Of a DNA stretch of 56,603 bases, positions 7,504 to 53,205 are shown piece by piece. The notes below the pieces were generated by a model. It worked only from the letters and a program-made list of their open reading frames with translations. It did no database searches and was not told the origin of the DNA. The number at the start of each line of letters is the position of its first letter. Position 1 is the first letter of the stretch. The DNA is from a virus: the IMG/VR virus record IMGVR_UViG_3300013137_000024, positions 1-56,603 of that record; one strand, given 5' to 3'. The position numbers and the translations under genes are program-made.

Positions 7504-7526
7504 AGAACAACCCATCGGAGGTCGTC

Positions 7527-29900: not shown

Positions 29901-32900
29901 CGTGGTTTCCCCAAACCTCCGAACGGTGGATGCTTTCCCTGTTACCTGGGAGGTGTACGAAGGCTACTCAACGAGCGTATACGATCCAGCACTTGTGGCC
30001 GATATGTTCTATGATCCATTCTCCCATCTGACGAGTGAACCTTTCAAGGTCCGACTGTTGTCTCCGTTGGGAGCAGTGCCAGACCCAGCAATAGGGGGCC
30101 ATCTCAAAGCCAATATGGCAGGGGCGTTGGCATCTGGGCGGAACATCAATGTCCGTTACGGGCTCACTGCTCCGAATGTTACGAACACGGCAACTTTGGT
30201 TGCCTTGACCCAAACTGTTCTGGGCCCTATTGCCAATGGGTCTCTCATTGTTTCAACCACGGAACCCCGATTCAGCACTGGAGCCTTTGATGTTCAAATC
30301 GGAACCGACAGGTATACCCCCGTGGGTGTGGTTTCGTTCTCACCCGATCCCGTAACCGTTGAATATCTGTTGAATGATGATGGGCCATTCTTGAAAGGAA
30401 CCCTGAAATTCAAACAAACGTTCCTGACGACCTATTCGATGGCTCAAGTGGTTTATGTCGAAACTTTCTTAGCCCCTTCTGATCTCACTGCTCTGACCGT
30501 CGAATATGCAGCTTCTACGGGAGAACTGAGTCTTTCTGAAAACGACATGACGGTTTGGCAAGGGACAACGGCCTATTTCGTGGAACAAATGATTACCGAG
30601 GATAGACAAGATGTGTCATTGAATCCTATCCTCGGATCTTTTGCTTTCAATCAGCCCATCCCGAAGGGGTCCTCAGTCGAAGCGGAATATTGGTTGGCAG
30701 ATCTTGAGGGCCGCAAGGTAGGCAACCCCATCACGGAGTTTCTCCCAGTTTTTGTTCGGAATGAAGTTGCAGTGCGTGTAGATGACCACACCTATACGTT
30801 CAATTCCCAAGCATGGACAGTGGTTTCTGAGGTGGAACCCATTGTTTTCCTTGGGGCCATTATGCAGAATTTCGGCACCTCGGACTGTGTTTTTTCCTAT
30901 CCCGGCGGCCGAGGACAGATTACGTTTCTCAGTCAAGTCGTGACCTCTGACACCATTGTCAAGGTGAACTATGCTGTTTTAGAAGCCCAAGGAGGGGAGC
31001 AGGCTTTCGAAACGAGTTCCAAACCGGTTTATCGGCCCCCATTTTACATCAAGGCCAATCAAAGTCGTTTTGGATTGCGGGGGAATAGGGCGGCTGATTT
31101 CCAAGCCGGACAGATGTTGCGCTTCGGGGAGGACTGTTTCTACATTCGGGGGACGCAATATTATCCCACGAGTGCCAATGGTCCTGTCACGTCGGTAGAG
31201 ATTTTCCCTACGACCATCAATGAGGTGGGTTCGCGAGCTCCCGCCAATGATGTTCTATCTTTAGTCACGGATCAACCGATCACGACGGTCGTAGATCCAG
31301 ATGGGGCCGCTATTCCAACCACGGCCCCGGCTGGATTCATGCAAAGTCTCGATCTCAATACGTTCCCGTTTGAATCCGTGAGTCGAGGTCAACGGACAAT
31401 TGTGTTTTTGGGGAACCTGATGCAATTCGCGGTTCCCGGGCATATTTTTGAAATCGGGGGCCATCCCCACACGATTTCCCAAGCCCAATTGTCTGAAGAT
31501 GGGATGAGATCCCGGATTACTATGACGGCTCCTTTCCGGACGGGATTCTCGATGGATTCCCCGCCCACAGTGAAGTTGTCCTATCGGCCAGTTTATCCCC
31601 CACAGACGGTTGATTTCATAGGGGTGGGTCCTCTTGTCTCCACAGAATCATCCGAGTTGGTTCTGTTTGGCCGGACAGATGGTGTTGGGGAACTTCCTGG
31701 TGAAACCCTGGTTCCCGGCATCGATTACACCCTGGATGCTTCTACGGGGGCAATCAAGATCCTGGCTCCTCGTCAGGAACCCCTGGATGGATCCGAGAAG
31801 CTTCTTCTCTCATTCACACGAAATAGATCACTCCAACCGGCCATTCAGAACGGATTGGTGGTTACGCCCCGGATGTCAGCAACGTATTTGTACACGGATG
31901 TCCCGACCGAACAGAATGGGCTCTTGGGGGCACTTCTCACCGGGACGTATACGTTTTCCAATCCTGACACGTTCTATTTCCGTGCGGTGCCTATAGCATC
32001 TTTCCTTGGGGAAATGGCACAAGAAGCCATTCGAGAAATCGCGGCCACCCAACCAGCGGGAGGCCCTTATCAGCCCAGTGACAGCACCAAGAATTGGGAC
32101 CAAGGCCGTGTTGGTCTGTTGTCACAACGTAAGCATTTACAAGACAAGGATCGGGCATCCAGGGCTTTTCTCGATTTCTACAACTCGACCATCTTGGCTT
32201 TTGAACAGATCGAAGAAACCTGTTCGGGGGGCTTTATCGGGGATCGGGATGGGAAGTTTCGTTTCTGGGTGGGGCTGGATCGGGAGTATCCCACGCCCGG
32301 TTATGAAGACCCCATCACTGGTGTTTTGATCTCGCGGTTTGTTTGGAGTGATGCTTTTAACGGGCAGGCAGCAGACCCGTTGAATCCTAATTTCATCACA
32401 GTGTTGCCTTCCGATTATGTCGTAACACCGGACTCTTTCATCCTGGCAAGCGGTGTGATGGACGGCCAAATCCCCAACCCTGATCTCATGTTCAGGCTCA
32501 TGTCCGAGCAGGAACAAATGATCCTCAATGACGTGGACGATTTGGTTCTGGTGCGCCTTGGTGAACCAGATGTGTCCAGCACGTGGACGTATCCATTTTT
32601 CCATTTCAAAACCAAAGGGAATGTTGCGCGGATGGTCGATTCACATCGATTTTCGCGCCTGTTCCCGACATTGACCCGGGCTTTTTTCATGACTTATCCC
32701 GGGATCAATAGCACGGGAGATGCGGTTCCGGGGGCCTATACCTGGGGACGATACACCGACACCGGGGATTGGGAAGAAACGCACGGGCACGGGATTGGAC
32801 AGCTTCATAATCCGGCCATTGGGGATTTGGACAACGTGAGGACAGCCAAGTTGTCCAAACGACGGGCCAGGGCTCGAATCTGGGGCTATTTCCCGAACGG

Positions 32901-35900
32901 AATCCCAGCTGGGGTGTTCGATGGGGGAACGTCTCCGATCATCACGGACCCGTGTGTGATTGCATCTTCTGTCCTGTTGCGGGATCTTCAGGTGGATCCT
33001 GACACCGGCTATCCAGATCAGAATCAATTCATCTCCCAAAGTCCGACTGGCACTGTCCCCGACTTGGAATCGGGAGATCCAGAATTGGTGGTTCCGCCCT
33101 TCAAAGCAGGGAATGAGATCGAATGGGGCAAACCGGATGGTACCACTAAACGAGCCTTGTCCCCATTGGGGGTGAGTATTTTCGGGATCCCCATGCTCAC
33201 CGGAGTGTATATCCGAGATGTTCTGTATGGATGCGTGATTCGATTCAAGAGCGGTGCAGGGAATATCTCGAGCCCCGATCAACTTCTGGTGGGTACAGGC
33301 AACACCACGGGGATCCCGGCCCATTTATACCCCATTGAAACCGGGGACACCATCTATGCCGGTCCCAATATCGGGACGGATCAAGAGCCCGCCGATCCTC
33401 CGACTCGTGAAACGATGATGTCCTTGGCATCCAATATTGATGCCTATCGAGACGGGTTTGACCTTGAAGTGACCGCCGATGGGGTTATCGAGGATAAGAC
33501 CTATCCTTCAATGAATGACCCGTCATTTCTCCCCATCAGAGAGATCCTTGGACAAAACCCCCCCGACCCTCTAACTCCTTTGGAGGGTCTTGTTGAGTTC
33601 GTTTACGTCAACGAGAATCCGCTCGAATTGCCGGCCCTCAGGGGGGAAGCCAAGGACGATTCTGGGGACTATCAGATTCCGTACATTCGGACGACGAATA
33701 CAGAGTTGGATCGTTTTGCCCAAGTGTTCACCGGCATGACTAATCTCATGGACCTGGATGATCTGGGAACATCCGCCGTATACCCCGATGAGATAGTCAG
33801 TCCTTTCTGTGATGTCGTGACCGGAACCCTGCATTTCCCGATTGACATCACCCCCGCTCCCGCTCTCGGGGTGGGACCTATTCAAGAGTATGATTTGTTA
33901 TTGGTGCAAACATATCCCGATGCAGGGCCATTCCCTGTCCCCGGCCCGCAAGGAATCTTCTCGGTCGGGGGATATGATGTTATCGGGGGAGAAGGTTTCA
34001 TTGGTGTACCCCGATTTGTCACTGAAACAACACCTCCGGCCGTTCCCGGAGGGCCGACGGGTTCCCCGATTCAATACACGTTTGATCGGGCAATGGCCTA
34101 CATTGACACCACCCCGGGCTATCCTTATGCGGGAGATCCCCAGGCCCAAGTACCCCCGCCTCCAGGGGTGGAGTTCTTTGAAGTGGCGTCGGAAGGGGCT
34201 ACCTATCTGAAGTTTACGTCCATCGGACAAATTGTGCTCAATGATGGTGTCATGGCGTCCGGTAATCTGAATGACATCTGGGCCGCCAGTGTCAACAATT
34301 CCGTAACGGTCACTGTCTACTCGAGATGGGATGACACCGTCACGGATGGTCCTGGATTCCCATTGCCCACGGTCAATCCGGGGGGTGCAATTTGCCTGCA
34401 ACTAGTCATTTCCCAAAATACTGTGTTGGTTATTCCCTATGCAGGAGTGCCTTTTATTGTTGGACTGTTGACCCCGCCCGTTTCGGGCGGGGATTGTCCG
34501 CTCGATCCGGATGGGCCTGATCCAAGCTATCGGTATATCAAAATCCCGGCCACGGGGATCATCCCTTGGGGGGTTCCTCCCATCCCCAATCAGTGGTTTT
34601 TGCCGTACGAGATAGTCAATCCCGGGCCGAATCAGGTCACCAAGACGTTGTATGGATTCGAATTCACCGTAGGTGTTTACACTGCTGCTGGGGGACATTC
34701 GGAGACAGCCTGGATTTCTTCTGATCGTCTGACATTCAACGAAGTCATTGACATGCGGCTTGCCAAATCCAGGGACACAGTACATCCGCAATCCGGATTG
34801 CCACTGAATGCCAGATTGACGGTAGATGTCGTCACTATCGGAGGTGGAACAGAATCCAATGTGAACTCTTGGTGTAATGGGGTGATAGGATTGATCCCCG
34901 ATCCATTTACCTTCCCAAGCCCGATGAATGGAACATGGTCTATTGCGGCTAAACACGGTTCAATTCGGGTGTGCGGTTACGAAGGATGGAACAATACTCC
35001 GGTTACCGGATCGGGAATTTCCGCTTCTCTGCTTCCATCAAGCGAGCGCATGGAGACAGACGCCATTCTGACAGCCACCGGCAAGACCGCTAGCAAGTAC
35101 AATGCGGGACTCGTTGCCCCCGAAATGTGGGATGACCGGTTTGTCGAACTCAGTGTGACCCAAGGAGCCGTTACCAATGTCGTTCCCGGGGACATTGTGG
35201 TCGTAGAACGATCTTCGAATGCGACCCATTTTGCAACCACGATGGCCGGAACCTATCTGGTACGACATGCCGTAGAGGCCACTCCGGGTGAAAAGTTCCG
35301 GGCAGTGTCCCTCAGATCCTATGCTGGATACGGTGCCGGTTGGTGTCCGGTGCATTTCCCCACGGTAGAGAATTACGATTCGGCAACCCATGTCTTGACC
35401 CTGTCCGATCTGGCTCCGGTTAATCAGGGAACTCCAGTCGGGGCTCTTCAGTCCGGATTTTTACCGGTAGGGAGGTTGTACGTCATTCGAGATGTGGCCG
35501 GGTTAGCATCCCCTGACGAGACTACATTTAGGGCGGCGGTTGTCAGTGCTATGGTCGTAGCAATTGCCACGGATCCCGATTCCAAAGGATTGTTTACTCT
35601 CAATCCGGTGTTGTGTCGAGATGCAGCCGGGGATCTTATCTCGGAGGCCGAATTCGAAACCGCCCTTGAAACTGGAATGCCCGTCTCCGGTATGGTTTTT
35701 TGGCCTGTGACAGTGGGTGGGGAGCAGGGTCTGCCATCGAATAACTGTGTGGGGTATCACACAGATGCAGATCCCCCAGCTCCCGCATTGGGCCGGGCAG
35801 TGTTCGGATTCCGTTGGGTGTCTATTGTACCGCCCCCCCAACTGAATGAAGATCCGACGGTTCAGAACGCAGTTTTCAGTGGAAATTTGGTGGATCCTCT

Positions 35901-38118
35901 TAAAATCGATGTTCCGGCTGGAGCGGGGCCCGATGTCCTGATTCCTTTGGTCAGCCCACTGGAGATCTCCAATGTGTTCCTTCCAGACATCACGGATCCC
36001 ATCTATTCTTGGGTAATAGACACCCTGGATGTATCTTGGGTTCAACCTTCTACCTGGACAACAATCAACATTCCAGCAACCTCCTGGGGGGCAGGTCCAG
36101 GAACCAGTTTCATCAGGTGTGTCCTTCCATTTTCTACATTAGCTTTGGAAAATATGGGATCCGCGCCTCCGGCAGATCCAGAAGGATTTTTTGCTCAGGC
36201 CGGTCTGTTCCTCGAACCCTCATTCCCGAGAATGGCAACTAACTTGGCCACTGCATATCGACATATTGTAGATACAACCTGGGATTTTCCCGACCCGTCT
36301 GCTCTTCCGGACCTGGATCGTGAGTTGGGGATGCGGGACACGGATACCTATGTGATTGGGGCACCTACAGGAATTCCCGAAGAAGTTACATTGACCGTCC
36401 GGAGGATTCGGAGATTCCATCAAACCGAAATCTATCAGAACCTCAGGCCTCTTCGATTCGCGTATGAGATCCGTCGAGGAATCATTATGTCTTACACCCC
36501 TGAGGGCACTCGGCAAACTGGGGTCGTGGACACAACGGATTTCTTCATGAACTGGGTGGCCCCTCCCGGCTCCCCTAAACCCGCTGATGTGTGGACAGAC
36601 GGATCGGGGCCTTACCTTGGAACAAATTTGGGAACCTTCGACAATGCGGATGTGAACATACATCCCGGAGATCTTTTCCGTTTGCTGGGGGATGATGGTC
36701 AACTCATCGAAGAAATCCCGATTGCCTCCGTGTTGGGGACTTCCCAGATCCTGTTGGCCATCCCCGGGATCACTCAAGTTCCGAACCCCGATGGATATCG
36801 GTTCGAAATCTATCTCCGCAGGCCACCAGTTCCACATGAACAATCCAATGAACAACTCTTGGGAATGATTACAGACCGAGAGATTTTCAGGACCGATGCC
36901 GATTGGGCAACCGATAAGAATAAAGGTGGCTATGTTCCAGATACGGGGACTGACACGTATGAAGATGTCGTAAACCATCTCTATGATGATTCTCTCATCC
37001 AAAGTTTCTCGACCCTGGGGGCTAGAAAAGGGGACATTGTAATCGTGGATCCGGCGGGAACCATTCCGCAGGATGGGGGTCTGCCGATATTGCCGGAGAA
37101 AGGGGGGCGGCCTCTCGGGGATTTGGGCGTTCCCGGTCGGTTGGATGCGGGCGGGAATCCAGTGTACACAGCGGGGCGTCCCACTCCATTGGACGACAAT
37201 CGAGGGTTCTACCGCGTCAAACAAGTAGTGGAAAACGTGGTACCCCCGTATATGTTGGTAGACCGAATCAACACTTTTGCGGGAGAGGCCGGGACTCCGG
37301 AAATCTTTGCCCAGACCAACAATCATAGGGCCTATGCAGTCTATCCGACGATTGATGACTCTGCTCTGGCCGTGGGATTGCAAGAGGGTCAGATGGATCT
37401 TCGACCCACAGCAGTACGAGACCCCGTGACCAAGAAATTTGATGACCGAGTAGGGCTTCTGAGATTCCATTCCATTCGGCCCTTCTCGTATAGGGTGATT
37501 CGGCCTTCCAAACTTTTCACAGACGAAACCATCGATCTCGTCTTGATGCACCGGGAACGGATGCTGTCTCTCATCGAGTTGCTCCGCAGGTTGATCTCGG
37601 GATACAAGAGTGGCACCTACTACGTATTCCAACGGGATGACCAACTCGATGAATTGGGGGACCCCCGAGATCCGGACATCGGATTGGGGGTGATCTCCAA
37701 TCCGTACCTCCTGGCTGTGATTGGCCGAACCGATGTGGTTCCATTCTCTAACAATGAATATGCACTGTCGCTTCTGGATCGTCGGTTCTGGATCTACGAC
37801 CGCAGATTGGATTCACTCACTACAGATCCTACGAATCCATTCAACATGAAACTCGGTGTGCCTGCTTATACAGCCTATACCGTGGATCCAGACGGGATTG
37901 ACGTGAATCCCGTTTTGCCAGAGCGGGTGGAACAGGTGCTGAACACTAGAGATCGATTTCGGCCATTACGATACACTTGGTTAGCATATCGGACTAACCG
38001 AGTGTATGGAACCCTCGCCGCCATTGCACGATTTGACACGGAGTTGCCAAGACGTTTGGTGGAACAATTCCAAGCCGTTGAACGATCGAGATCTCTGGAC
38101 AAGGTGCAACAGTCATGA
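26923..38118 (+). CDS. 3731-residue giant virion protein
   Basis: One uninterrupted frame from ATG 26923 to TGA 38116-38118. No strong ribosome site is visible, so it is probably coupled to the preceding gene, whose stop lies one base upstream. It is a chain of beta-rich modules without catalytic motif, signal peptide or membrane segment. Recognisable units: a module ending LGFLPGW at residues ~656-752, similar to modules in the sheath and gp25-like proteins; a short GYRLKITSGSCQGSYLVRSV unit near 955-1015, similar to units in the I-like and LamG-type proteins; and repeated phrases such as GRIRLSSADVD. The last ~150 residues (DRFRPLRYTWLAYRTNRVYG and on) are helical and may anchor it. Location between spike and wedge genes suggests a baseplate or tail-fibre-scale structural protein. 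No family recognised. Confidence 0.85.
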   Translation: MSRFTGHVLRGANISPANATITSEPSTGVARDIRSLPGPGIYTLTAPALIEARADQYRAAVLEAPGTTTQEFLVWAANTSSLTILDDPNDPTWQTETGTGTFYSGTLTVTDLDPLVTHTDGTNYVIITDNGNRSLSAILYIVVARGDTEYDDDGWVDPDNPSAGRKGTNPYLVFTINPASQNPVSGKVTITAPQLALLGGGLSLDRGDNVVIVRYLLAPARFWWTRNDRYETRFGWNGQTQRWEPYKGGSPKDLGILLLNSGYKLFPKVVNLPVGAYLPGNETQPDEYAMIRLGSDPGVTSLPVGPGGLFLGIQVKPDVDVEAFDFATAPALSGIMGQTSGALRFNPSFAELYAGRTVWYVPKTFVVGSNGVVGKMLDAVTGSLFVAPIPGILDCPLIRFGNRRYLQATIYPNDAAMSLAPVPTAGSVQVSASTGRIRLSSADVDQADPSSPSFSKHYLGEDVIYDGVALNATPQPVQKQVQLVDTVGNPATGNSSAFYIPDAVTLPDEFINLSETHRGLGISGVLDVPDGTGAIPSNPGTPASVRPGGDSEVTLNTGRVRQVYSIGDTILFSGRSAMFSLHYVDRESDLPSASNVGTGEAWIARERGITGSKVMLNSGDLASIGDGAIYFLQTTFTPAVYTQLGQLISRNRDIFRFDGTEVLYFAIDGSGYSWPSSILLAALPGRTFFTAAEVASSIFSVVTGTGRVYASAGRILIEADDPTLGSVEIGFGNPKDLSGAAVLGFLPGWRAVGGVGTWLPDAGLAVGLFRTPYDLDRTQGYADISDVARVNGGIVHSSVPASPFVFLDNPPLQDVAGIDEGIFFALTTLIDDGTGNVQVVIKPLEHYLDIIHRFGQKKFDWISDGITENEYVQPVTILSFDNLNVVPKSLLAAPGIGGGLWIDPDGTGYVFQDQGSDYLLPQEGQSGTAILTERFGQRILFGAMGRVVVAGGTTFEDVTTDYTGVQPGYRLKITSGSCQGSYLVRSVLSPTALVVSPNLRTVDAFPVTWEVYEGYSTSVYDPALVADMFYDPFSHLTSEPFKVRLLSPLGAVPDPAIGGHLKANMAGALASGRNINVRYGLTAPNVTNTATLVALTQTVLGPIANGSLIVSTTEPRFSTGAFDVQIGTDRYTPVGVVSFSPDPVTVEYLLNDDGPFLKGTLKFKQTFLTTYSMAQVVYVETFLAPSDLTALTVEYAASTGELSLSENDMTVWQGTTAYFVEQMITEDRQDVSLNPILGSFAFNQPIPKGSSVEAEYWLADLEGRKVGNPITEFLPVFVRNEVAVRVDDHTYTFNSQAWTVVSEVEPIVFLGAIMQNFGTSDCVFSYPGGRGQITFLSQVVTSDTIVKVNYAVLEAQGGEQAFETSSKPVYRPPFYIKANQSRFGLRGNRAADFQAGQMLRFGEDCFYIRGTQYYPTSANGPVTSVEIFPTTINEVGSRAPANDVLSLVTDQPITTVVDPDGAAIPTTAPAGFMQSLDLNTFPFESVSRGQRTIVFLGNLMQFAVPGHIFEIGGHPHTISQAQLSEDGMRSRITMTAPFRTGFSMDSPPTVKLSYRPVYPPQTVDFIGVGPLVSTESSELVLFGRTDGVGELPGETLVPGIDYTLDASTGAIKILAPRQEPLDGSEKLLLSFTRNRSLQPAIQNGLVVTPRMSATYLYTDVPTEQNGLLGALLTGTYTFSNPDTFYFRAVPIASFLGEMAQEAIREIAATQPAGGPYQPSDSTKNWDQGRVGLLSQRKHLQDKDRASRAFLDFYNSTILAFEQIEETCSGGFIGDRDGKFRFWVGLDREYPTPGYEDPITGVLISRFVWSDAFNGQAADPLNPNFITVLPSDYVVTPDSFILASGVMDGQIPNPDLMFRLMSEQEQMILNDVDDLVLVRLGEPDVSSTWTYPFFHFKTKGNVARMVDSHRFSRLFPTLTRAFFMTYPGINSTGDAVPGAYTWGRYTDTGDWEETHGHGIGQLHNPAIGDLDNVRTAKLSKRRARARIWGYFPNGIPAGVFDGGTSPIITDPCVIASSVLLRDLQVDPDTGYPDQNQFISQSPTGTVPDLESGDPELVVPPFKAGNEIEWGKPDGTTKRALSPLGVSIFGIPMLTGVYIRDVLYGCVIRFKSGAGNISSPDQLLVGTGNTTGIPAHLYPIETGDTIYAGPNIGTDQEPADPPTRETMMSLASNIDAYRDGFDLEVTADGVIEDKTYPSMNDPSFLPIREILGQNPPDPLTPLEGLVEFVYVNENPLELPALRGEAKDDSGDYQIPYIRTTNTELDRFAQVFTGMTNLMDLDDLGTSAVYPDEIVSPFCDVVTGTLHFPIDITPAPALGVGPIQEYDLLLVQTYPDAGPFPVPGPQGIFSVGGYDVIGGEGFIGVPRFVTETTPPAVPGGPTGSPIQYTFDRAMAYIDTTPGYPYAGDPQAQVPPPPGVEFFEVASEGATYLKFTSIGQIVLNDGVMASGNLNDIWAASVNNSVTVTVYSRWDDTVTDGPGFPLPTVNPGGAICLQLVISQNTVLVIPYAGVPFIVGLLTPPVSGGDCPLDPDGPDPSYRYIKIPATGIIPWGVPPIPNQWFLPYEIVNPGPNQVTKTLYGFEFTVGVYTAAGGHSETAWISSDRLTFNEVIDMRLAKSRDTVHPQSGLPLNARLTVDVVTIGGGTESNVNSWCNGVIGLIPDPFTFPSPMNGTWSIAAKHGSIRVCGYEGWNNTPVTGSGISASLLPSSERMETDAILTATGKTASKYNAGLVAPEMWDDRFVELSVTQGAVTNVVPGDIVVVERSSNATHFATTMAGTYLVRHAVEATPGEKFRAVSLRSYAGYGAGWCPVHFPTVENYDSATHVLTLSDLAPVNQGTPVGALQSGFLPVGRLYVIRDVAGLASPDETTFRAAVVSAMVVAIATDPDSKGLFTLNPVLCRDAAGDLISEAEFETALETGMPVSGMVFWPVTVGGEQGLPSNNCVGYHTDADPPAPALGRAVFGFRWVSIVPPPQLNEDPTVQNAVFSGNLVDPLKIDVPAGAGPDVLIPLVSPLEISNVFLPDITDPIYSWVIDTLDVSWVQPSTWTTINIPATSWGAGPGTSFIRCVLPFSTLALENMGSAPPADPEGFFAQAGLFLEPSFPRMATNLATAYRHIVDTTWDFPDPSALPDLDRELGMRDTDTYVIGAPTGIPEEVTLTVRRIRRFHQTEIYQNLRPLRFAYEIRRGIIMSYTPEGTRQTGVVDTTDFFMNWVAPPGSPKPADVWTDGSGPYLGTNLGTFDNADVNIHPGDLFRLLGDDGQLIEEIPIASVLGTSQILLAIPGITQVPNPDGYRFEIYLRRPPVPHEQSNEQLLGMITDREIFRTDADWATDKNKGGYVPDTGTDTYEDVVNHLYDDSLIQSFSTLGARKGDIVIVDPAGTIPQDGGLPILPEKGGRPLGDLGVPGRLDAGGNPVYTAGRPTPLDDNRGFYRVKQVVENVVPPYMLVDRINTFAGEAGTPEIFAQTNNHRAYAVYPTIDDSALAVGLQEGQMDLRPTAVRDPVTKKFDDRVGLLRFHSIRPFSYRVIRPSKLFTDETIDLVLMHRERMLSLIELLRRLISGYKSGTYYVFQRDDQLDELGDPRDPDIGLGVISNPYLLAVIGRTDVVPFSNNEYALSLLDRRFWIYDRRLDSLTTDPTNPFNMKLGVPAYTAYTVDPDGIDVNPVLPERVEQVLNTRDRFRPLRYTWLAYRTNRVYGTLAAIARFDTELPRRLVEQFQAVERSRSLDKVQQS

Positions 38119-42139: not shown

Positions 42140-43270
42140 GTGTCCCAGGATGTTCGACTCGGTTGGCCATGTCCGCATCAGACTCTGGAAGAGGTGGTGC
42201 ATCTCGACCAGGACAGAAGAAGCCTTTACACTCGTCAACCCATTGGTGGCGTTGGGACGGTACGAATCACGGTCAATGATGAACTGCTGATCCCCCAAGG
42301 GGGTTTGTTCTCTCCGGCCCAACTGTACGGTGCTCTATCTGGACCTTTCGAACTTGTAGAAGATGAAGATATCCTGACCGTGACTACCTCGGCCGGCACG
42401 GATTCTATTTCGTTTCAGATTCGGGGCATCGTGAGGCTGAGTTCTTCTGACGTTCTCCAGCGCATCCGGGCGGGGATCTCAACGTCCAAGGCCAACATGG
42501 AGACGGAAAATGGGCATCTCCTGTTCACGGACACCACGGCCATAGGACCCGATGCATTTGTGCAGATTGGGGGAACGGCCGCCGCGGCATTGGGGTTCGG
42601 AAATGGTTATCAGCAGGTCACCCACGGCAAAATGGTCTATCCTGGTTGGGGTGTCTATGATAGGCCCATCGAAAGTAAAATCGATGCCCAAAGTGTGTTC
42701 CGGTATCCCAAATTTGCTTTGCCGGTGCGTACCAATCCGGTTTTCAAGGTCTCTTATACGGTTCCCCCCAATCGGTGTCTCCGATGCCGTGGGGGTTACG
42801 TCGAGAATGATCTGAGGCTTGACCCCACAGGTCAGACCATCATGGTTCAGAATGAAGACCTTCTCTACCAAGCGGCTTTGAAGATCATACTGACGGACAG
42901 GGGCAGCAATCCTTACCAGCCCTGGTATGGGACTCAATTGAGATCCCGCATCGGATCAAAGATCCTGGCAGGTGCTGCCGCAATGATCAGTGAAGATGTC
43001 CGTCAGGCCCTGGCCCGGTTTCAATCGTTGCAAGAAGCCCAGTCCAAGTACCAGAAGGTTACTTACAAAGAACGGCTGTACACGGTTCTGAGCGTGAATG
43101 TGAAACCTCATGTACAGAATCTGACTGCTTTCACTGTCGAAATTGTTGTCCAGAACGCATCCGGAGAGCCGGTTAATCTGACAACAGTGTTTACAGTTCC
43201 CGGTGTTGTAGCATTGATGGGTTCCAATGGATTGGCCTTGGGAACCCAATGGGCCGGAGTGGTGAAGTAA
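42140..43270 (+). CDS. gp25-like baseplate wedge protein with extra N-terminal module
   Basis: 376 residues from GTG 42140, eight bases after GGGGAGG. Residues ~235-355 fit the GPW/gp25 family: QNEDLLYQAALKIILTDRGS, then NPYQPWYGTQLRSRIGSKIL, ISEDVRQALARF and a strand block VLSVNVKPHVQNLTAFTVEI. gp25-type proteins close the inner baseplate wedge and have the sheath-like handshake fold. The first ~225 residues are added: residues ~70-157 form a module ending AAALGFGNGYQQ, like modules in the sheath and giant protein, followed by a CxxC-type pair in NRCLRCRGG. Standalone gp25 proteins are about 100-150 residues, so this is a fusion. The next gene starts directly after the stop. Confidence 0.75.
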   Translation: MSQDVRLGWPCPHQTLEEVVHLDQDRRSLYTRQPIGGVGTVRITVNDELLIPQGGLFSPAQLYGALSGPFELVEDEDILTVTTSAGTDSISFQIRGIVRLSSSDVLQRIRAGISTSKANMETENGHLLFTDTTAIGPDAFVQIGGTAAAALGFGNGYQQVTHGKMVYPGWGVYDRPIESKIDAQSVFRYPKFALPVRTNPVFKVSYTVPPNRCLRCRGGYVENDLRLDPTGQTIMVQNEDLLYQAALKIILTDRGSNPYQPWYGTQLRSRIGSKILAGAAAMISEDVRQALARFQSLQEAQSKYQKVTYKERLYTVLSVNVKPHVQNLTAFTVEIVVQNASGEPVNLTTVFTVPGVVALMGSNGLALGTQWAGVVK

Positions 43271-46200
43271 ATGGCAATGTCCCCCCAAATTCTCGGACCC
43301 GATGGTCAGTACCGAACAACCTTTGCATATTCTACTGACACGGCCGATCAGTTTTTCTCGGGGCGATGTGACCCGGACACAGCAGATATGCAGATTGCGC
43401 TGCGAAGTGACGATTTTCAGTCTGATCCGGATCTTGTAACTTTTGAGGGTGAGACCTTCATCATCCCCAATCCCGCTGTATACCCTGATGGAATCACCCT
43501 TCTCCCCGGGTCCAATCTGATTCAAGTGCGTTCGGTATTGTCCAATGGGGACAGCACTTCACCGGCCAGTTTGGATATCACGCTGTCTCTTGAACGTGAT
43601 GTCAAATCGGGTGTTCTTGCCCCCACAGATGTCTCTGTGGAACGAATGGATCGCACGGTAAAGATTGCTGTCCGTGGCGGAACTGATCCTGCCATCATGG
43701 GGTACAACGTTTATGGTTCTGCGGCCCCTGGCGGGGGTCTAACCGGGTACAAACGAATCAACCCTTCCCTGATAACAGCCGGGGCAACAGAAGATGCCAC
43801 CAGCACTCTTGGGGAAATGACCGCCGACGCTGTTGTGGCAACCAATCCGGATGGGACCCCGATAGCGGATCCAACGTACCTTCAGGTTCTAGGGGTGGAA
43901 ACCAGTCGTCCCGTTGCTTCAGATCTTCTTGGGGACACTCTTAGCATTCCCGAAGTAATCAAGACCGATTACCACCAGGTGATAGTCATTCCCGATACTA
44001 CGAGCCGAGTACGGACTATTTTGACTGTCGAATCTGTAGATACAGTGCAAATCTATTCGTTTGTCCATGACCGGAGATCTGTCGCCACGTCATCTCTGAA
44101 CCCGGCCATTCCCAACTCTGAGTTCTTGACCCTGGCGGATTCGGACCCCATTTATTATGTTGTCACTGCGTTGTATCTGATTGACAACCAACAGTATGAA
44201 TCCCCATATTCGCCCGAATTGGCAGCTGCACCATTGGTGGTGACTCCGGTCATTGCATCTCTTCCTTCGGTGTCGCATGCCCAGATCGTACAAGACTTCT
44301 CGTTGTCCATTTTCCGGACACATCCTGAGGCGGGGATTGCACCAGGATCATTTCTTCGAGACACCACGATTGATCCATTTGCCACCGAAGCTGAACGCAT
44401 CCGATTCATTGTTGGGTTTGTGCAGAACTGTCAATCGTTCGCCACTCTTCTGGCAATCGATGATCCGGGATATACGGGGACATCGGTTCCGGTGGCTCAA
44501 TCCCCTTATAAACAAGCTATCAAACAGGCTTTTTATCTTCAATCGGATCAGGATGTTCAGAACATCATTGACAATGCTTTCGACCGATTGGCTTCATCTA
44601 GGGGTCAGACTCGGTCTTCAGGTAAACGTTCTCGGGGAGAAGTGACCATCTATACGATTTTCCGGCCTACAACCACCTACAACATTCCTATCGGGACTGC
44701 CATGACAGGTGGTGGAATCACTATTCGTAGTACCTCCACGGGACAGATTACATCGACAGGGGCCGGGAGTTCTTACAATCCGGCAACGGGTCGGTATATG
44801 ACCCGGGTTTTCGTACAAGCAGATCAACCCGGAACTGCTGGAAATGTGGCAGAAGGTCAAATCCGAACCTTGATGAACGGTTCGGCGGGGCTCCAGGTAA
44901 TCAATGAAACCAAACTCTATGGGGGATACAACGCCGAAAGCAATCGGGACCTGGCTGTTCGATGTGATCGAATCATCGCTTCGGTTGATTCAGGTACGGC
45001 CGAGGGCCTGTACCAACGAGCGATTGGGGTGCCCGGTGTTCGGGAGGTCAATATTGTTGGGGCTGGTAATTCATTGATGATGCGCGACCTCGATGCTACC
45101 GGTCGGCATACCGGAGGCAAAGTCGATATCTGGCTCCGAGGAGACAACCTTGCTCGGATTACAGACAGGTTTGCTTTCTCGTTTGAATTGGTGATCAACG
45201 GGCAATTCGAGCCCGTGGGCTCACTGAACGATTTGCGTTTCCGGGTCATCAATGAATCGGTGACCGAATCCAACCCCATCATTCAGATGATAGAGAACGC
45301 GGCGTGGGGTTACGTGTTCAAAGATCTCGATACTGGTAAGGTGTTCGATCTTACTGATGTGCTGATTGAAAGTCCGGATACCATCGTGTTGTCTCCGGAT
45401 TACAACACTCCCGCGAGTGTCAGTCTGACAGATCGTTTTGTCGGAACTTACAGGTTCCGCACAAGTGACAAGCATGTTTTCGCGCGGCAACCGGTGGATT
45501 CAATCGTGTCCTTGGTGGGAGACCAATCTGGTGTCATTCTGTCAAGCGACTATGCTTTGTACCCCGGGAGTGTCCCCCTTGAGTTAGGCCGTTCAATCGA
45601 AGCCGGGGACTATCTTCAGGTTTCCACGGATGCCACGATTCCGTCTTCTGAGGCCCTGTCCACTCCTTCTACGGGAGAATCCCACACACTCATAGACCGA
45701 ACAGAATACCTCAACAATTTGGGGATCAATCCCATTACGGTCAGGGTGTGGGACACCCAACGGGTTACCGAATATTACGGTCCCTACTATCCCACAAGTT
45801 CTCCTGATTTCAGTTTCATCCCCGAGATGGGGGAAACGCCTCTGGCTTTGTATCTCACTGCGGGGTCACGTCTTGAAGCAGGTATGACGGTATTGGTGGA
45901 TTACGAATACGATGAGAACTTCACTGTAACCTACGTCACTGATTCGATGGTGAGCAGTGTTCAGAACGCCATGGATCCTCATCTTCATGTTACGGCCGAT
46001 ATCTTGTCGAAAGATGCCTTGGCGACGGGGATAGATCTCGAAGCCACTATCGTTTTGCAACCGGGATACACCCAATCCTCTGTGGATGGGCCGGTTCGTA
46101 CTGCTCTGGCTCGTTTTTTTGGTTCTTTGAAGTTGGGTCAGGCTTTGAGACAATCCGATGTCGTGGGCGTGATCGAATCAGTGATGGGTGTCTCCTATGT

Positions 46201-46810
46201 GGTAATTCCTATCATACGGATGACCAAAACCGATGGTTCTATGGTTCTCCGTGAGGATATTGTTACAACCAATGCTAAAACGGACTACACTTTTATTGAA
46301 CCCTGGTCCACGGTCGCTGTAGATGTCTATCTCTTAACCAACCCCCTGAGTTATGGAACTGTGGGCGGGGGTGGGAATCTGAATGACTCCAAAGGGGTTT
46401 TTGTCACCACTTTGGACCCCAACCTGGTGCCTCATACGATTGACTTGGAATGCTACTCGGCACCCCCAAATCCCAACGGGATTCCCATCAGGGAAGTGTC
46501 CAATGCGGCTTTCATCATTGGAAATGAAGGACTGTGGATTCCCGGATACAGCGACGACGACACACTCAAACAGAGATATCCTTTTGCAACGGATGAAGAA
46601 CGTTCTTTGCATCGGGTGCAGATAACCGCAAATCGGGTTTTGGTGGCGTTGCCCAAAGGCACAGTGCCCAGCGAAGGTACTTATCAGTTAACCTATGTGG
46701 TTTATGGTGATTCCGGGGTCAAGAACATTGAACCCAGTGCGGTGGAATATCTTGAGTTGGGCACCTTGAACTTCGTGTATGACGAAGATCGTTGTGGCAG
46801 GAGGGTTTGA
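43271..46810 (+). CDS. Baseplate J-like wedge protein (gp6/gp47 type)
   Basis: 1179 residues; its ATG follows the previous TAA directly. The N-terminal ~350 residues contain Ig/fibronectin-like material (TDPAIMGYNVYGS). From ~350 it follows the baseplate J pattern: a segment with GSFLRDTTIDPFATEAERIR, then PGTAGNVAEGQI, a YGGYNAESNRDLAVRCDRII block and PGVREVNIVGAGNSL. J-like proteins form the wedge that transmits the contraction signal. Residues ~802-878 are a 77-residue block that recurs, gap-free, in the next gene. Typical J proteins have 300-500 residues. Order gp25-like, J-like, I-like is the classical one. Confidence 0.82.
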   Translation: MAMSPQILGPDGQYRTTFAYSTDTADQFFSGRCDPDTADMQIALRSDDFQSDPDLVTFEGETFIIPNPAVYPDGITLLPGSNLIQVRSVLSNGDSTSPASLDITLSLERDVKSGVLAPTDVSVERMDRTVKIAVRGGTDPAIMGYNVYGSAAPGGGLTGYKRINPSLITAGATEDATSTLGEMTADAVVATNPDGTPIADPTYLQVLGVETSRPVASDLLGDTLSIPEVIKTDYHQVIVIPDTTSRVRTILTVESVDTVQIYSFVHDRRSVATSSLNPAIPNSEFLTLADSDPIYYVVTALYLIDNQQYESPYSPELAAAPLVVTPVIASLPSVSHAQIVQDFSLSIFRTHPEAGIAPGSFLRDTTIDPFATEAERIRFIVGFVQNCQSFATLLAIDDPGYTGTSVPVAQSPYKQAIKQAFYLQSDQDVQNIIDNAFDRLASSRGQTRSSGKRSRGEVTIYTIFRPTTTYNIPIGTAMTGGGITIRSTSTGQITSTGAGSSYNPATGRYMTRVFVQADQPGTAGNVAEGQIRTLMNGSAGLQVINETKLYGGYNAESNRDLAVRCDRIIASVDSGTAEGLYQRAIGVPGVREVNIVGAGNSLMMRDLDATGRHTGGKVDIWLRGDNLARITDRFAFSFELVINGQFEPVGSLNDLRFRVINESVTESNPIIQMIENAAWGYVFKDLDTGKVFDLTDVLIESPDTIVLSPDYNTPASVSLTDRFVGTYRFRTSDKHVFARQPVDSIVSLVGDQSGVILSSDYALYPGSVPLELGRSIEAGDYLQVSTDATIPSSEALSTPSTGESHTLIDRTEYLNNLGINPITVRVWDTQRVTEYYGPYYPTSSPDFSFIPEMGETPLALYLTAGSRLEAGMTVLVDYEYDENFTVTYVTDSMVSSVQNAMDPHLHVTADILSKDALATGIDLEATIVLQPGYTQSSVDGPVRTALARFFGSLKLGQALRQSDVVGVIESVMGVSYVVIPIIRMTKTDGSMVLREDIVTTNAKTDYTFIEPWSTVAVDVYLLTNPLSYGTVGGGGNLNDSKGVFVTTLDPNLVPHTIDLECYSAPPNPNGIPIREVSNAAFIIGNEGLWIPGYSDDDTLKQRYPFATDEERSLHRVQITANRVLVALPKGTVPSEGTYQLTYVVYGDSGVKNIEPSAVEYLELGTLNFVYDEDRCGRRV

Positions 46811-46812
46811 CT

Positions 46813-48384
46813 GTGATCGCAGATCCCAAGGATATCCTGCCAGGAATGGACCCTCAAAATCCAGCCCCATTCACGGCCAAGACCCAGGATCATATGACGG
46901 CTGTCAGGTCTCAGGTGGACCGTATCGTGGCCGAGCTCATGCGGGTTCTCCCTTCCAACTATGTGTCCCAGACGACAGGACCTTTCTACACCATGGAATT
47001 CCAGGCGGCCGCTGAGCAATTGGCAGAATTTCAAATCACGGCCCAAGAACTGTTGGCGGATTGGTCTACCGATTTCACTAGGTCTGAAGTTTTGTTCCAA
47101 ATTTTGGGGGCGTTGGTCTTTCCCAATGCCACAACCGCAGACGGATGGCCCCAAATCAGCGGTGACGTGTCCTACAGAACTTTCCTGCAACGAATGGTAA
47201 CCTTGCTCCTCCAAGGATCAACCAAAGACTCAGTGAAAGGGGGGGTGGAGGCACTGACCAACGCCACGGTAGAAATCATTGAACGGGCGTTGGCTGCTCG
47301 ACAGATGAAAACAGGATGCGCTTGGGGGCCCGCGGATCAATTTACTTTCGAGATTAATGTCAGTGACCAGCGGCCACTCGAAGTTACGGGGGAAACGCAT
47401 ACCTTCACTGGATATACGGAATCCTTGAATTATCTGGGGATTGATGCCCAAACTGTTCAGGTATTCAGCCTAGACAGGTCTATTCGTTATTACGGTCCTT
47501 CCGACTTTGGGGTCACCCAGGATTTTGATTTGATCTCGGAGATGGGTTCGACTCCGTTGATGTTGGAACTTACCCCCGAATCTCGTCTTGTGATTGGTTC
47601 TTCTGTCCTGGTCGATTACATTAGGCACATCCCCAGCTTTCCTGCTAACCCATTCACATTACAACACAATGTTCAGATTGTTTTGCGGGCATTGAGACCT
47701 GCACACACTTTGTACGACTATCGGTATCTTTTCCGTGAGATCATGTCCTCTTTGATTCAAGCTGATGTGCAAGTCTGGGACATGTCCCGGTTTGAGTACG
47801 AGGACTCCCGTAGGTATTGGCTGGGGGTATATGCCATTACGGGTTCCGATGGGGTGACTCTTTCTGACAGGTCCCTTTTCAGGGATTACTCTCGAGATTT
47901 CAGTGCCGTACCTACGGGGGCGACACTCAGTGTCTTGACGGGGGCCAATCAAGGGGAATATCAGGTGCAAGAAGTCCGAGTATTCCCGGTGGGGGATGAC
48001 CCAACCCCAAGATTGTATACAACTATTCCGACCGGGTTGACGGGGTATGCCACGGTGCTGGGTTCAGATGTGTTTGACATCGATCCCACACATGATTTCT
48101 CGGCCATTGAAGAAAATGAGATCCTGGTATTTCATACCGGACCCAATGCTGGGAGCTATCGGATCAGCGTTCTTTTGGGTCTAAATGGTGGTGTGGTGGG
48201 CCAGTTCTCTCCTCCACCGGGGTCCCAATACACGAGTGTTCGATTGTCGGCTTCTCTGTTGCGGGTGAAGGGCTGGATGTCTTCGGCTGCCCGTAATCAA
48301 GAGTACCGGGTCACGGTAGACCGATTGGGGGTTCAAAGTCCCAATCATGAAAATGAAGATGCCAGTGCTTTTTTTTGTAGGTGA
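46813..48384 (+). CDS. Tail protein I-like wedge protein
   Basis: 523 residues from GTG 46813, which follows the previous stop by two bases and has GGCAGGAGGG upstream; an earlier GTG at 46792 is inside the previous gene. The N-terminal ~160 residues fit a P2 gpI-like protein by context and pattern (MTAVRSQVDRIVAELMRVLP, FQAAAEQLAEFQITAQELLA, LFQILGALVFPN). gpI-like proteins connect the wedge to the tail fibres. Residues 193-269 are the 77-residue block shared with the J-like protein. Two short GxYxV-type modules follow (~361-400, ATLSVLTGANQGEYQVQEV; and ~426-460, ILVFHTGPNAGSYRISVLLG). The ending DASAFFCR is cysteine-containing and unremarkable. Confidence 0.7.
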   Translation: MIADPKDILPGMDPQNPAPFTAKTQDHMTAVRSQVDRIVAELMRVLPSNYVSQTTGPFYTMEFQAAAEQLAEFQITAQELLADWSTDFTRSEVLFQILGALVFPNATTADGWPQISGDVSYRTFLQRMVTLLLQGSTKDSVKGGVEALTNATVEIIERALAARQMKTGCAWGPADQFTFEINVSDQRPLEVTGETHTFTGYTESLNYLGIDAQTVQVFSLDRSIRYYGPSDFGVTQDFDLISEMGSTPLMLELTPESRLVIGSSVLVDYIRHIPSFPANPFTLQHNVQIVLRALRPAHTLYDYRYLFREIMSSLIQADVQVWDMSRFEYEDSRRYWLGVYAITGSDGVTLSDRSLFRDYSRDFSAVPTGATLSVLTGANQGEYQVQEVRVFPVGDDPTPRLYTTIPTGLTGYATVLGSDVFDIDPTHDFSAIEENEILVFHTGPNAGSYRISVLLGLNGGVVGQFSPPPGSQYTSVRLSASLLRVKGWMSSAARNQEYRVTVDRLGVQSPNHENEDASAFFCR

Positions 48385-48390
48385 TTCCCA

Positions 48391-51300
48391 ATGGGTTTGA
48401 TCATTGTGCCCATCAATGCTGAGACACTGCAAGTGATTTTCTCGGGAGTTCCAGACCCCGCCGTAGCGAATGTTTCAAATTGGTTCTTTGCTCCTACTAC
48501 ATACTATCCAGTACCTCTTACGGCACTCTCGGTGACTTACCCTTATGCGGGAGATCTTCTTCAAGCTCAGGTGACTGTTCAGGGAATGACCAGTATTTGG
48601 TATCAGGGCCAAGTAACAACTCCCGGACCGGTCATTTGGGATGACATTTTCATGGGCCTGGGGGATTTGGCCCAGGATGTTTTTTGGACTCGTAAAGGGC
48701 CTTTGGTGAAAGATTGGGGGGATGAAACCCCTGCCACTGTCAAGGATGTTCATGTTTATGTGGGAATATCCCAAACCGAAGTCGAAATCACTGATGTCAA
48801 TCCTTACACCGGGCGTGTTCAGACGGCCATTCCTATTCCATTGTTGCCATCGGGGGATCCGAACGGTCTGGTCACAGTAGATTACCGATGGATAGCCACC
48901 CCGATTATGGAACTGTCTGGTCTCAATACAGAGGGGTTGGTTCTCAATAAATGGGATAGGTCAGGTCGAGCAGCAAGGTCCGGGCAATTCCCCATGGCGG
49001 TTGTATTGCCTCAAAGGCATCGCCCGGATCCTCTGTTGATCGGATGGAGATTTATGGGGTTCGAGCGGGCAGCTTCAGCCTTGCTGAATGCCCCCACTAC
49101 TTTGACTTTGAATCAGAATCCGGCCGCAGACTGCGTGCCCGTATTTACTCGTAACCAACTTAGTAGTTCAGGGTCTTTTGAAGCTACTTCGGCACCCGCT
49201 GACGCTAATTCTCCTTGGATTCTTACGGGATTGGATTCCGGGTACCCGGTTTTGTCTGGTGAATTTGTAGGGACTTATGTCCTGGAAGATGCCCATTCGG
49301 GCATTTATGATCCTGAAGGGACCAACCTTTTCATCGCTAAGTACACCCAACCCGTACAACTGCATGATCTCGATCCCGAAGGTGTTTCGGGATATCTTAC
49401 TGTCAGATTTGAAATCCTGGACTATGAACTCGATGGGGTATTTACCGGGATTGGATTTGGACTGTGCGGCAATGCCAAATTCGGTTTGATTGGGGCAGTC
49501 CTAATCAATGGTCTTCAACATATAGGTTGGTTGACTGACATTGCCCGGCCCGATCTCGAAACATCCTGGATTTTGGGTCCTCAAGTCCAGGGAACGATTT
49601 TGACCCCCACGTCTCCGGAATTCTCCAACAATCGTGTCAGTGTTACGACCTCCGAAATCCCAGTCGGATTGTCTTCCGGTAGTCGTTTTCAGATATTGGA
49701 TGGGGTCCAAAGTGGTGTATACACGATCATTTCTGCAACGGGGCATACTGATCGGACCACCACACTGCTGGTAACACCAGATTTTTCTACTCGGCCGGGT
49801 TTGGTTGGGACCAAGTATCCCCTTTTGGTATTCGAGACCCCGTGGCAGGGAACACCTTCCACGTATCGACTAGCTATCGACCCGGATGATCAGGCTGTAA
49901 CTTTGTGGATGGCCGGTTCGGTATCCATGCCCGGTGGGCGGCCCATTCTGAACATGGAAGCAGACGCTGCGTGGGTGCTTCAGGCGGAAGATTCACCTGT
50001 TTTCGGAATGTCTGAAGATGGGGTCTTCTGGGGTTCCCTATCATTTGCTGCCACCAACAACAGTCGGTGGTCTTTTGTTCGTTACCATATCGTCCCCCAT
50101 GTTCCTCGATTTCGAGCTGTCAGTTTGAATCGGAATGCTCTGAATGTAACTGATTCCGTTTTGGATGATGGATTTGCTTGGTTTGCCCGTTTCGGATATT
50201 CATGGTGGAAAGCATCGGATTTGGTCATACAAAGTTCGGGGTCAACATATCTTAATGGCTTCAATTCCCCCTCCACTTTCACGGCGGAGCTACCCGAGAT
50301 TTTTCTCGACCGGCAAACCAATTTTGATTTGACAACGGAATTCATTCAGGAATTCACCAGTCTAGGATGTTCCCCTATCATAGAGTTTGCAGATCCTGAA
50401 CGGTTGATGTGGTTCGGGACCTTAAGTTATGTTGCCAAAGTGTCGCCCGGATTGGATTATCGGAGGTTGGTGTCCCCACCCAGCGCGAGTATGGAAGGGT
50501 TTGCTCTTCCTACGGATGCCGGGGGTTGGTTTGCGATGCCAGCCACGTTGACATCTGGGATAACTATCACTCAGTTGAATGGGCAAGAAATCAGTTATAC
50601 GGGAGACATTGACGATCCCGAAGCTATCAACCCCAACTCTCCTGTTGGACGTGTGTTTTTTGCGGTTTTGCAAGTGACCGCTGTCATTTCTGGAGAAGAT
50701 GCGTTAGCACCCTTCTATTTTGGGGCTGATGTGGGTCGGGATGCCCATCTGAGGGTGCGATTCAAGGATGCTTTAGAATCATCCGAACGCAAAATCATGT
50801 TGACCACATTATCGGACACGCCTGTTCAAGAGGTGCTATTCGATTGGAATGATTCAGCGGCCCACACCTATCAATTGGTAGCCAATGGTACGGGGGCCAT
50901 TCGATTGACTGTAGATGGTGAACCACTGGGATCAGCGGTTCAAGCGGAAACGTGTCCTGGCCATCGGGGCGATTTTCTTCATGACCGCTACGAGTATGGA
51001 ACGTTTGCCATTCGGGGAAGCAAGAGTGTTACCATCTGGGATGACATCGGATATGAAACCACATCCCCTGTAGATCCTTTGGGTCCTGATGTCAGGATTA
51101 CCCAATCCGAAAATCAACGTTTGGTGTACCGAGCATTTGTTCACGGATCCTACAATGATGTTGTAGATGACGGCGGACGGGTTTTGACTGCCCGTTTGGC
51201 CATAACAGATGCAGAATTGGTGGCTGATCTGACCAGTGTGTTTGTGGCGGCAGATGTGCATCCTGTATCAGGGCATGTTCAGATTCGGTTTGGTGGTTCA

Positions 51301-53205
51301 ACCAATCCCCACGTGGACCTGACTGACATCACTGGAATAGTGGCCGGTTCCTATTCTTTTGATTGGACAGATGGGGAACCCCATACCTATCAGGTCAAGG
51401 TCACAAATCTGGGGGTGGTGAGCCTACTGATTGACGATAACCTACAGATTCCCACCCTAACTTTGGCTTCTTTCCCCGGACGGGCCAGTCCAACAACTGA
51501 AGATGTGTGTGATTTTGGAACTTTGGGGGATCCCAGTTGGACTAGCATTTCTTTATGGCAGTTCGTGAATCTGATTACCCTGCCCGGATCAGAAGTGCTC
51601 AAAACCGTAGGAATCTATCGAGGTAACACTTTTGATACATTGATGGATATTGATTGTTGGGAGTTGCCTCGTGCAGATAGTTCTACTGCAGCCAATTCCT
51701 CGGATGACATCTCGGTAGATATCCGGGAGGTGGATTGGTCAGTCCGTCAAGATTATCGGATCCTCCGAACACCCGAATGGGGTGTGACGGTTTTCATTCC
51801 GTCTTTGGGTTCTGCTCCTTGGCATGTTGGAAAACGGCAAGGATGGGTCAATCCTAAATCAGAACCATCTGCTGGATGGATCAATGTCGAATACGAGGAC
51901 CTGTTACCTAATTGGGATCAGATACCGAGTCATGTGAGATTTGGATCCTCCGAAACGGCTCTACAACGGTGGTCTCAATTTAGGTACCGGTTGTTCCGGC
52001 CACAGGATCCTGATCTCATTGCGCCTCCCAGTATGGTGCTGAATCGTGGGAACATGTTGACCAGTGGTGATCTGGGCAAAGACACATCATTGGAGATCGT
52101 GGCTATCCAATCTTTGGACACACGCCGAGTTACTCTCAAATCCACGCACATTTATGCTCAATCGGTGTACAAGATCATCGACGGAACTAAGATCATCACT
52201 CGAGAATCATGGGATTTTGACAAAAAAGCCCAATTGATTACGCTCAAAGATCCCATCTATCAGCCCACTGGGGGTACGGCGGAGTTCTCATCAGAGCATG
52301 CAAATCTCACTGTGGTTTTCATTCCCGGCTTGCCCGTCACTGAGACCTACCTGACCAATCAGGCCCTGCTTGAAAGCGCCCTGCTACTCAATGAAAGAAC
52401 TCCTCCGTTCCAGAAGGACCAGTTTGGTAAATCCGTTTTGACAGTGAAGGAAATTGTCACCGCCACGGATGTCACTCATGTTGATTTGACCCCCACGGGC
52501 AATCCGGCATCCCAGGTTATCCGTATCGAAGACGGAGCTCAGATCTTTGTCTCTGCAGATTACCAAGCGACATTTGCACCGCCGGTACAACCCCCTGTTC
52601 CTGCCGATTTCACGTTTGATCCGGGAACGCAAATCGTGACTTTGGCCTCTGGGAGGTCGTTCTCCGACCCGGCCGCTTCATTGATGGTGTGGTACACGCC
52701 CGTAGCTATCAATGTTGAGAACGGAGACCCGACAGCGGCCCACATAGATCCTCCGGGAACTCGTTTCCGGGATTTGAAGTTTATCACCGTGGACAATGAT
52801 GGGGACACCGATCTTATCACCACTGTGAGCGACTGCACACTGCCTTTGGGGCAATCCGGGTTCATTCCCGGTGAAGGTGGGGATCCTGTCTACAGTCTCA
52901 CCGGGACGGGAGATCCGTTGGGAGCCGCTCATCCCTATGACGGACTTCGGGATACCAAAACTACTGTCGGGGCACCCGTGGGAAGTCTGGTGTTTGAGTA
53001 TCGCGGGTCTCTGTTCAACGAACAGAACCCAATTGTAGAGACGGCTCGGGTGACTTTCGATCTCATGAAGCCGGACGGCACTCCGATTACTCGATGGGAA
53101 CGTTTGGATAACCGACCCATCCAACAACTTGTTTCAGGCGTCTTCTTGTTTGCATCCGGAGGTTCGACAGATGGGGGTTTCCTGAACGATGCTGCTCTGT
53201 ATTGA
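48391..53205 (+). CDS. Giant LamG/jelly-roll-containing virion protein
   Basis: 1604 residues, ATG at 48391. It contains repeated concanavalin/LamG-like units: ~759-890 (FDWNDSAAHTYQLVANG, then VDGEPL, PGHRGDF, EYGTFAI) and ~935-1064 (FDWTDGEPHTYQVKVTN, IDDNLQ, PGRASPT, DFGTLGD), clearly tandem copies. A third at ~335-568 is interrupted by a GSRFQILDGVQSGVYTIISA module at ~417-470. LamG-type folds often bind glycans, so adhesion to host surface sugar is plausible but unproven. The N-terminal ~330 residues probably attach to the baseplate; the C-terminal ~400 are beta-rich. Its position directly after the I-like gene is where fibre or receptor-binding genes usually lie. No enzyme motif was found. 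Confidence 0.78.
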   Translation: MGLIIVPINAETLQVIFSGVPDPAVANVSNWFFAPTTYYPVPLTALSVTYPYAGDLLQAQVTVQGMTSIWYQGQVTTPGPVIWDDIFMGLGDLAQDVFWTRKGPLVKDWGDETPATVKDVHVYVGISQTEVEITDVNPYTGRVQTAIPIPLLPSGDPNGLVTVDYRWIATPIMELSGLNTEGLVLNKWDRSGRAARSGQFPMAVVLPQRHRPDPLLIGWRFMGFERAASALLNAPTTLTLNQNPAADCVPVFTRNQLSSSGSFEATSAPADANSPWILTGLDSGYPVLSGEFVGTYVLEDAHSGIYDPEGTNLFIAKYTQPVQLHDLDPEGVSGYLTVRFEILDYELDGVFTGIGFGLCGNAKFGLIGAVLINGLQHIGWLTDIARPDLETSWILGPQVQGTILTPTSPEFSNNRVSVTTSEIPVGLSSGSRFQILDGVQSGVYTIISATGHTDRTTTLLVTPDFSTRPGLVGTKYPLLVFETPWQGTPSTYRLAIDPDDQAVTLWMAGSVSMPGGRPILNMEADAAWVLQAEDSPVFGMSEDGVFWGSLSFAATNNSRWSFVRYHIVPHVPRFRAVSLNRNALNVTDSVLDDGFAWFARFGYSWWKASDLVIQSSGSTYLNGFNSPSTFTAELPEIFLDRQTNFDLTTEFIQEFTSLGCSPIIEFADPERLMWFGTLSYVAKVSPGLDYRRLVSPPSASMEGFALPTDAGGWFAMPATLTSGITITQLNGQEISYTGDIDDPEAINPNSPVGRVFFAVLQVTAVISGEDALAPFYFGADVGRDAHLRVRFKDALESSERKIMLTTLSDTPVQEVLFDWNDSAAHTYQLVANGTGAIRLTVDGEPLGSAVQAETCPGHRGDFLHDRYEYGTFAIRGSKSVTIWDDIGYETTSPVDPLGPDVRITQSENQRLVYRAFVHGSYNDVVDDGGRVLTARLAITDAELVADLTSVFVAADVHPVSGHVQIRFGGSTNPHVDLTDITGIVAGSYSFDWTDGEPHTYQVKVTNLGVVSLLIDDNLQIPTLTLASFPGRASPTTEDVCDFGTLGDPSWTSISLWQFVNLITLPGSEVLKTVGIYRGNTFDTLMDIDCWELPRADSSTAANSSDDISVDIREVDWSVRQDYRILRTPEWGVTVFIPSLGSAPWHVGKRQGWVNPKSEPSAGWINVEYEDLLPNWDQIPSHVRFGSSETALQRWSQFRYRLFRPQDPDLIAPPSMVLNRGNMLTSGDLGKDTSLEIVAIQSLDTRRVTLKSTHIYAQSVYKIIDGTKIITRESWDFDKKAQLITLKDPIYQPTGGTAEFSSEHANLTVVFIPGLPVTETYLTNQALLESALLLNERTPPFQKDQFGKSVLTVKEIVTATDVTHVDLTPTGNPASQVIRIEDGAQIFVSADYQATFAPPVQPPVPADFTFDPGTQIVTLASGRSFSDPAASLMVWYTPVAINVENGDPTAAHIDPPGTRFRDLKFITVDNDGDTDLITTVSDCTLPLGQSGFIPGEGGDPVYSLTGTGDPLGAAHPYDGLRDTKTTVGAPVGSLVFEYRGSLFNEQNPIVETARVTFDLMKPDGTPITRWERLDNRPIQQLVSGVFLFASGGSTDGGFLNDAALY

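Follow-up and report, generated by a model that had tools for sequence, protein, structure and literature searches.

The window, as the whole analysed stretch is called here, is a 56.6-kb IMG/VR virus contig, probably a fragment, in which a gp25-like gene, a J-like and an I-like baseplate wedge gene follow one another (Table 1), the adjacency of J and I being kept in relatives. The J-like protein matches Pfam Baseplate_J (PF04865, E=1.1e-15, 58 bits, passing the curated cut-off of 21.1) and the PHROG of baseplate wedge subunits (phrog_6, E=1.1e-20), and Foldseek aligns it with J-type wedge proteins, those of T4 (gp6), phi812 and Mu among them, as well as with gp188 of Bacillus phage G. Upstream of the baseplate genes, an open frame of 3731 residues extends from 26923 to 38118. 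Another frame (7278-10028), in the phage structural gene region, carries what appears by eye to be a putative von Willebrand factor A-like stretch (FVLDRSGSMAGDP) together with an N-terminal VIT-like part, an unusual cargo.

Table 1. Features of the baseplate locus, with their positions in the window
Feature	Position	Strand	Length	Remarks
gp25/sheath-initiator-like gene	42140-43270			27.6 bits, under the 32.9 cut-off
J-like baseplate wedge gene	43271..46810	+	1179 aa	family from which the block comes
J copy of the block	45674..45904	+	77 aa	J residues 802-878
I-like wedge gene	46813..48384	+	523 aa	directly 3' of J; 66 distinct orthologues
Whole I loop	47362..47646	+	95 aa	flanked by strand FTFEINV and helix NPFTLQHN
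I copy of the block	47389..47619	+	77 aa	I residues 193-269 of 523, counted from GTG 46813

The I-like gene most likely starts at GTG 46813 and not at TTG 46792, from which its frame can also be read; AGGAGG lies about 8 bases upstream of the GTG, and the relatives of the protein begin MADxP. The I-like label comes mainly from gene order, because Pfam Tail_P2_I (PF09684) gives this protein no match at E<=1 and matches none of 21 family members, and it is complemented by a weak profile similarity to P2 gpI. When the I family was compared with a profile of twelve gpI-type proteins across the strand and the helix lying next after the helix-turn-helix, the score with the loop left out was 22.2 (E 0.0022, above all of 200 shuffles; hhalign probability 13%), and the E value rose to 0.052 with the loop included. 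This weak alignment (hhalign probability 13%) sets FTFEINV against TFRLDI and LRALRPAHTL against LIADAKPASRHL, so that the insertion described below would map to the turn between the strand and the helix carrying KPASRHL in P2. Members of the gpI group (P2 gpI, R-pyocin PA0619, XM1 gp17, T4 gp7) are likewise encoded directly after J, although the window protein is much longer and has a loop of 95 residues where P2 and PA0619 have a short turn. No PDB match to the fold of I was obtained at E<=0.001, and its structure model is poor at the block (pLDDT 23-35). In several relatives (L007, L009, L016, L040, L085, L087, L089 and others) the I-like frame runs on into an open frame of 1550-2040 aa that appears to take in the large tail gene downstream; the window has them apart, as the I-like gene and the gene at 48391-53205 are separated by 6 bases.

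A preliminary description of this DNA, made from the letters alone, had pointed out a block common to the J-like and I-like proteins, 231 bases long in each, gap-free and identical at 40 of 77 residues. These values were confirmed, both copies being in frame, and the identity lies far above a shuffle control (mean 5.5, maximum 14 in 2000 shuffles); BLASTP of J against I gives an E value of about 5e-16. At the nucleotide level the copies share 128 of 231 bases, with 45, 53 and 30 identities out of 77 at the first, second and third codon positions. Homology begins a few residues upstream of the block, at about 47374, where I reads PLEVTGE and the J relatives PIEV.GE, and it ends downstream with VDY. 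These are the only two copies in the whole record, and none of the window's other tail proteins gives a significant match.

Relatives of J and I were gathered by scanning viral contigs, with sizes of up to 536 kb, and a block HMM was applied to every open frame of 60 codons or more in their loci. In this profile search, which the preliminary description had suggested, the block was matched by J-like proteins and, among I proteins, by that of the window only; the sole other match, at 12 bits, is a reverse-strand frame overlapping the window's I copy. The block stands at the same place in 68 of 69 distinct near-full J proteins, the exception being J of Tunturiibacter phage Tunturi_5, to which the C-terminal half of the block still aligns. 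Twenty large records searched whole held one copy in 18 cases, two in one (L070) and none in Tunturi_5, and a pattern scan of bacterial and archaeal genomes found none. This distribution marks the block as a native part of J within a clade of large phages with contractile tails. The J model (pLDDT 85) shows it as a compact, strand-rich unit (model residues 383-459, pLDDT mostly 85-91), flanked by a low-confidence linker and by the conserved C-terminal part. Its boundaries agree with those of the predicted structure, and it is predicted to be a small accessory beta domain. No named domain corresponds convincingly to it among Pfam, PHROG or PDB profiles, and as regards an Ig-like or other named beta-sandwich fold, the model shows predicted strands only. 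Comparing the block's profile with the adjacent J domains returned no sign that it is one of several tandem homologous domains. The core and the C-terminal part of window J are alike by profile and fold to those of P2 gpJ, Mu gp47, T4 gp6 and phi812 ORF62, but the two parts are separated by about 46 residues in the solved phi812 J as against about 325 profile positions here, the block included.

The situation in I is different. The 66 distinct I orthologues, that of the window included, were aligned and the loop was read between FTFEINV and NPF.L: it is 7-42 aa long in 52 of them, and the J block occupies it in the window protein only. In another 12 the loop, which follows FTFEVNV, contains a His-rich insert of 69-76 residues with the pattern HYHTV..G.G.T...GSGP.H.H.I..F.V....HTHDLLS; its bearers (L085, L087, L089, L091-L094, L096-L098, L125 and L075) form one clade, which includes LR745208, plus L098. 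Metal binding by this insert is conceivable. It has no PHROG match and no convincing PDB match, and the four carrying records searched for its source hold one copy each. An unrelated insert of 88 residues (GVPYTVASGTLVFNGVASVIS...), one sequence found in L079 and L080 (I open-frame residues 199-286), has only a very weak match to phrog_6 (baseplate wedge). A decayed remnant of the block was sought in the 42-aa loop of I from L003 and L004, where similarity does not go beyond that of shuffles.

The presence of the block in nearly all J proteins and in a single I protein implies that it is native to J and was copied into the strand-helix loop of I in the lineage of the window. The I tree, built without the loop columns, points the same way: it takes 4 changes to account for the four loop states, grouping all insert-bearing proteins in one clade is rejected (p = 0.0004) and window I is placed among short-loop proteins, so that the block is a gain in I. 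A one-way copy from J to I is therefore well supported by the sequences. The preliminary description had proposed the exchange of a whole module between two wedge proteins that touch each other; whole-module transfer between neighbouring wedge genes stands, and mutual exchange does not. It had also considered that the block might be an intrinsic part of both families, which holds for J in this clade and fails for I. As to the donor, the tree supports a placement of the I copy beside window J no better than one beside J of L003/L004 (AU p = 0.51). No close relative with the block in its I loop was found, so that the insertion is known from one contig.

The copy is old. Its divergence from the J copy is about that between window J and its nearest known relatives, and synonymous sites are saturated (dN 0.44, dS not computable). 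Nevertheless, all 14 positions conserved in at least 85% of the 68 J blocks are kept in the I copy, including the polar residues E, H, E and D; the kept residues fall in GE.H, E.L..LG, YYGP, D and VDY. Of the five J-conserved residues immediately outside the block, in contrast, I has changed four (P, S, E, N). This pattern, kept inside and mostly changed outside, shows that a single domain was copied and that selection has acted on it ever since. The same retention despite saturated synonymous sites speaks against an assembly error; indeed, an assembly artefact or chimaera, which the single contig might suggest, is extremely improbable, since 48% of the residues and 45% of the bases are not shared by the two copies, and the frame of I stays open to either side. 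Hardly more credible is that J and I are related and that the block is an inherited common part, lost by most I proteins. In XM1 the J-like and I-like proteins do have a homologous domain I (PMC10457771), but the block lies in an insert before the C-terminal part in J and in the strand-helix loop in I, a single I protein of 66 carries it, and this copy resembles J of close relatives.

The block has also moved within J. J of L154 has a second copy at residues 1124-1205 (53 bits to the block HMM), and J of L070 has one at about 1134-1200, which aligns locally to the block of that protein with a score of 108 (shuffle maximum 59). In both proteins the second copy sits in a C-terminal hairpin, whose length elsewhere in the J family is a few residues. 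With two sites of relocation, the I loop and this hairpin, the domain has moved at least twice among the wedge genes of the clade.

The favoured explanation, which we regard as probable though well short of certain, is that an accessory domain of J was copied in frame into the I loop and serves there as an extra bracing or docking module on the wedge. The coding sequence of exactly the J block was copied, in the lineage of the window, into a surface loop of I, the one joining strand FTFEINV to helix NPF...LRALRPAHTL, in which other lineages have put other domains. If each wedge is built, by analogy with other baseplates, of two J and one I, the I copy would lift the number of blocks from two to three per wedge, and from 12 to 18 per baseplate. 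Since it keeps every residue that is nearly invariant in J, the I copy would bind a partner similar to that of the J copy, probably through the contact surface used in J. Candidate partners are an adjoining domain of the wedge and the protein that comes next in the baseplate or fibre; the contact between J and I presumed for this phage is taken from other baseplates. The retention of conserved residues may reflect folding instead of binding.

Other contractile systems offer precedents for such a role. The XM1 wedge consists of two J-like chains and one I-like chain, and two parts of the I-like gp17 hold the tail spikes, namely the C terminus and the flexible loop 80-106, which binds one set of six of them (PMC10457771). 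This is a variable loop of an I-like protein, as in the window, although the two loops may lie on opposite sides of the strand, no sequence alignment of window I to gp17 having been obtained. In AlgoCIS, the gp7-like part of Alg12 has been named a hotspot of re-engineering (PMC8894135). The wedge thus changes with the lineage at its I/gp7 side in both cases; in Alg12 the change concerns entire domains of a fused protein, whereas here a traceable copy of a J domain lies in one loop. By analogy with these two precedents, an added contact or docking surface on I would be the most likely role of the I copy. The preliminary description had suggested a docking domain, perhaps for the same fibre or plate protein, and such docking becomes more plausible because all 14 conserved residues are kept, because three different domains are found in the I loop and because the gp17 loop holds a spike.

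Taken further, the same analogy would make the I loop an attachment point for a spike or fibre, with the domain exchanged to change the fibre. The docking envisaged in the favoured explanation includes this case, so that the confidence placed in the two overlaps. The XM1 loop and the three kinds of insert in one I loop are in keeping with this idea, but the uncertain correspondence of the two loops and the presence of the block in nearly every J, where nothing links it to fibres, make it rather unlikely. A role without any specific partner, in which the loop takes any small fold and the J domain landed there by recombination as a harmless, tolerated passenger, is slightly less likely still. 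The content of the loop does not seem critical, since it may hold the unrelated His-rich or 88-residue inserts or be only 7 aa long; a passenger, however, would be expected to erode or be deleted, and the I copy has kept every J-conserved residue while its synonymous sites became saturated. Somewhat ahead of both, although doubtful as a general rule, is the possibility that the strand-helix loop of I serves these large phages as a general docking slot, into which lineages plug small domains, the J block among them; if so, domain swaps would change the cargo of the baseplate or how its wedges are tied together.

Phage structural proteins carry mobile Ig-like domains, small beta domains that move between virion proteins, and the movement of such domains is thus already known as a kind of event. 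The block is likewise a small, predicted beta domain that has moved between virion proteins, but it is found only in wedge proteins and has no convincing Pfam or PDB match. Neither a copy from J to I nor a slot in the I loop was found in the open-access full-text literature searched. Judged from sequence, the domain copy is real, directional and lineage-specific, it took place within the wedge genes of a large phage, and its target loop hosts inserts elsewhere too. No part of a contractile tail is more conserved than the baseplate wedges, yet swollen versions of them occur in large phages; for one step of this enlargement, the source, the target site and the direction can now be read from sequence. 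An insertion slot that is fixed in place and filled differently by lineage, together with two separate relocations of one domain family, would portray baseplates as machines rebuilt from swappable parts, and specific residues and loops are now available for tests of assembly or of fibre docking.
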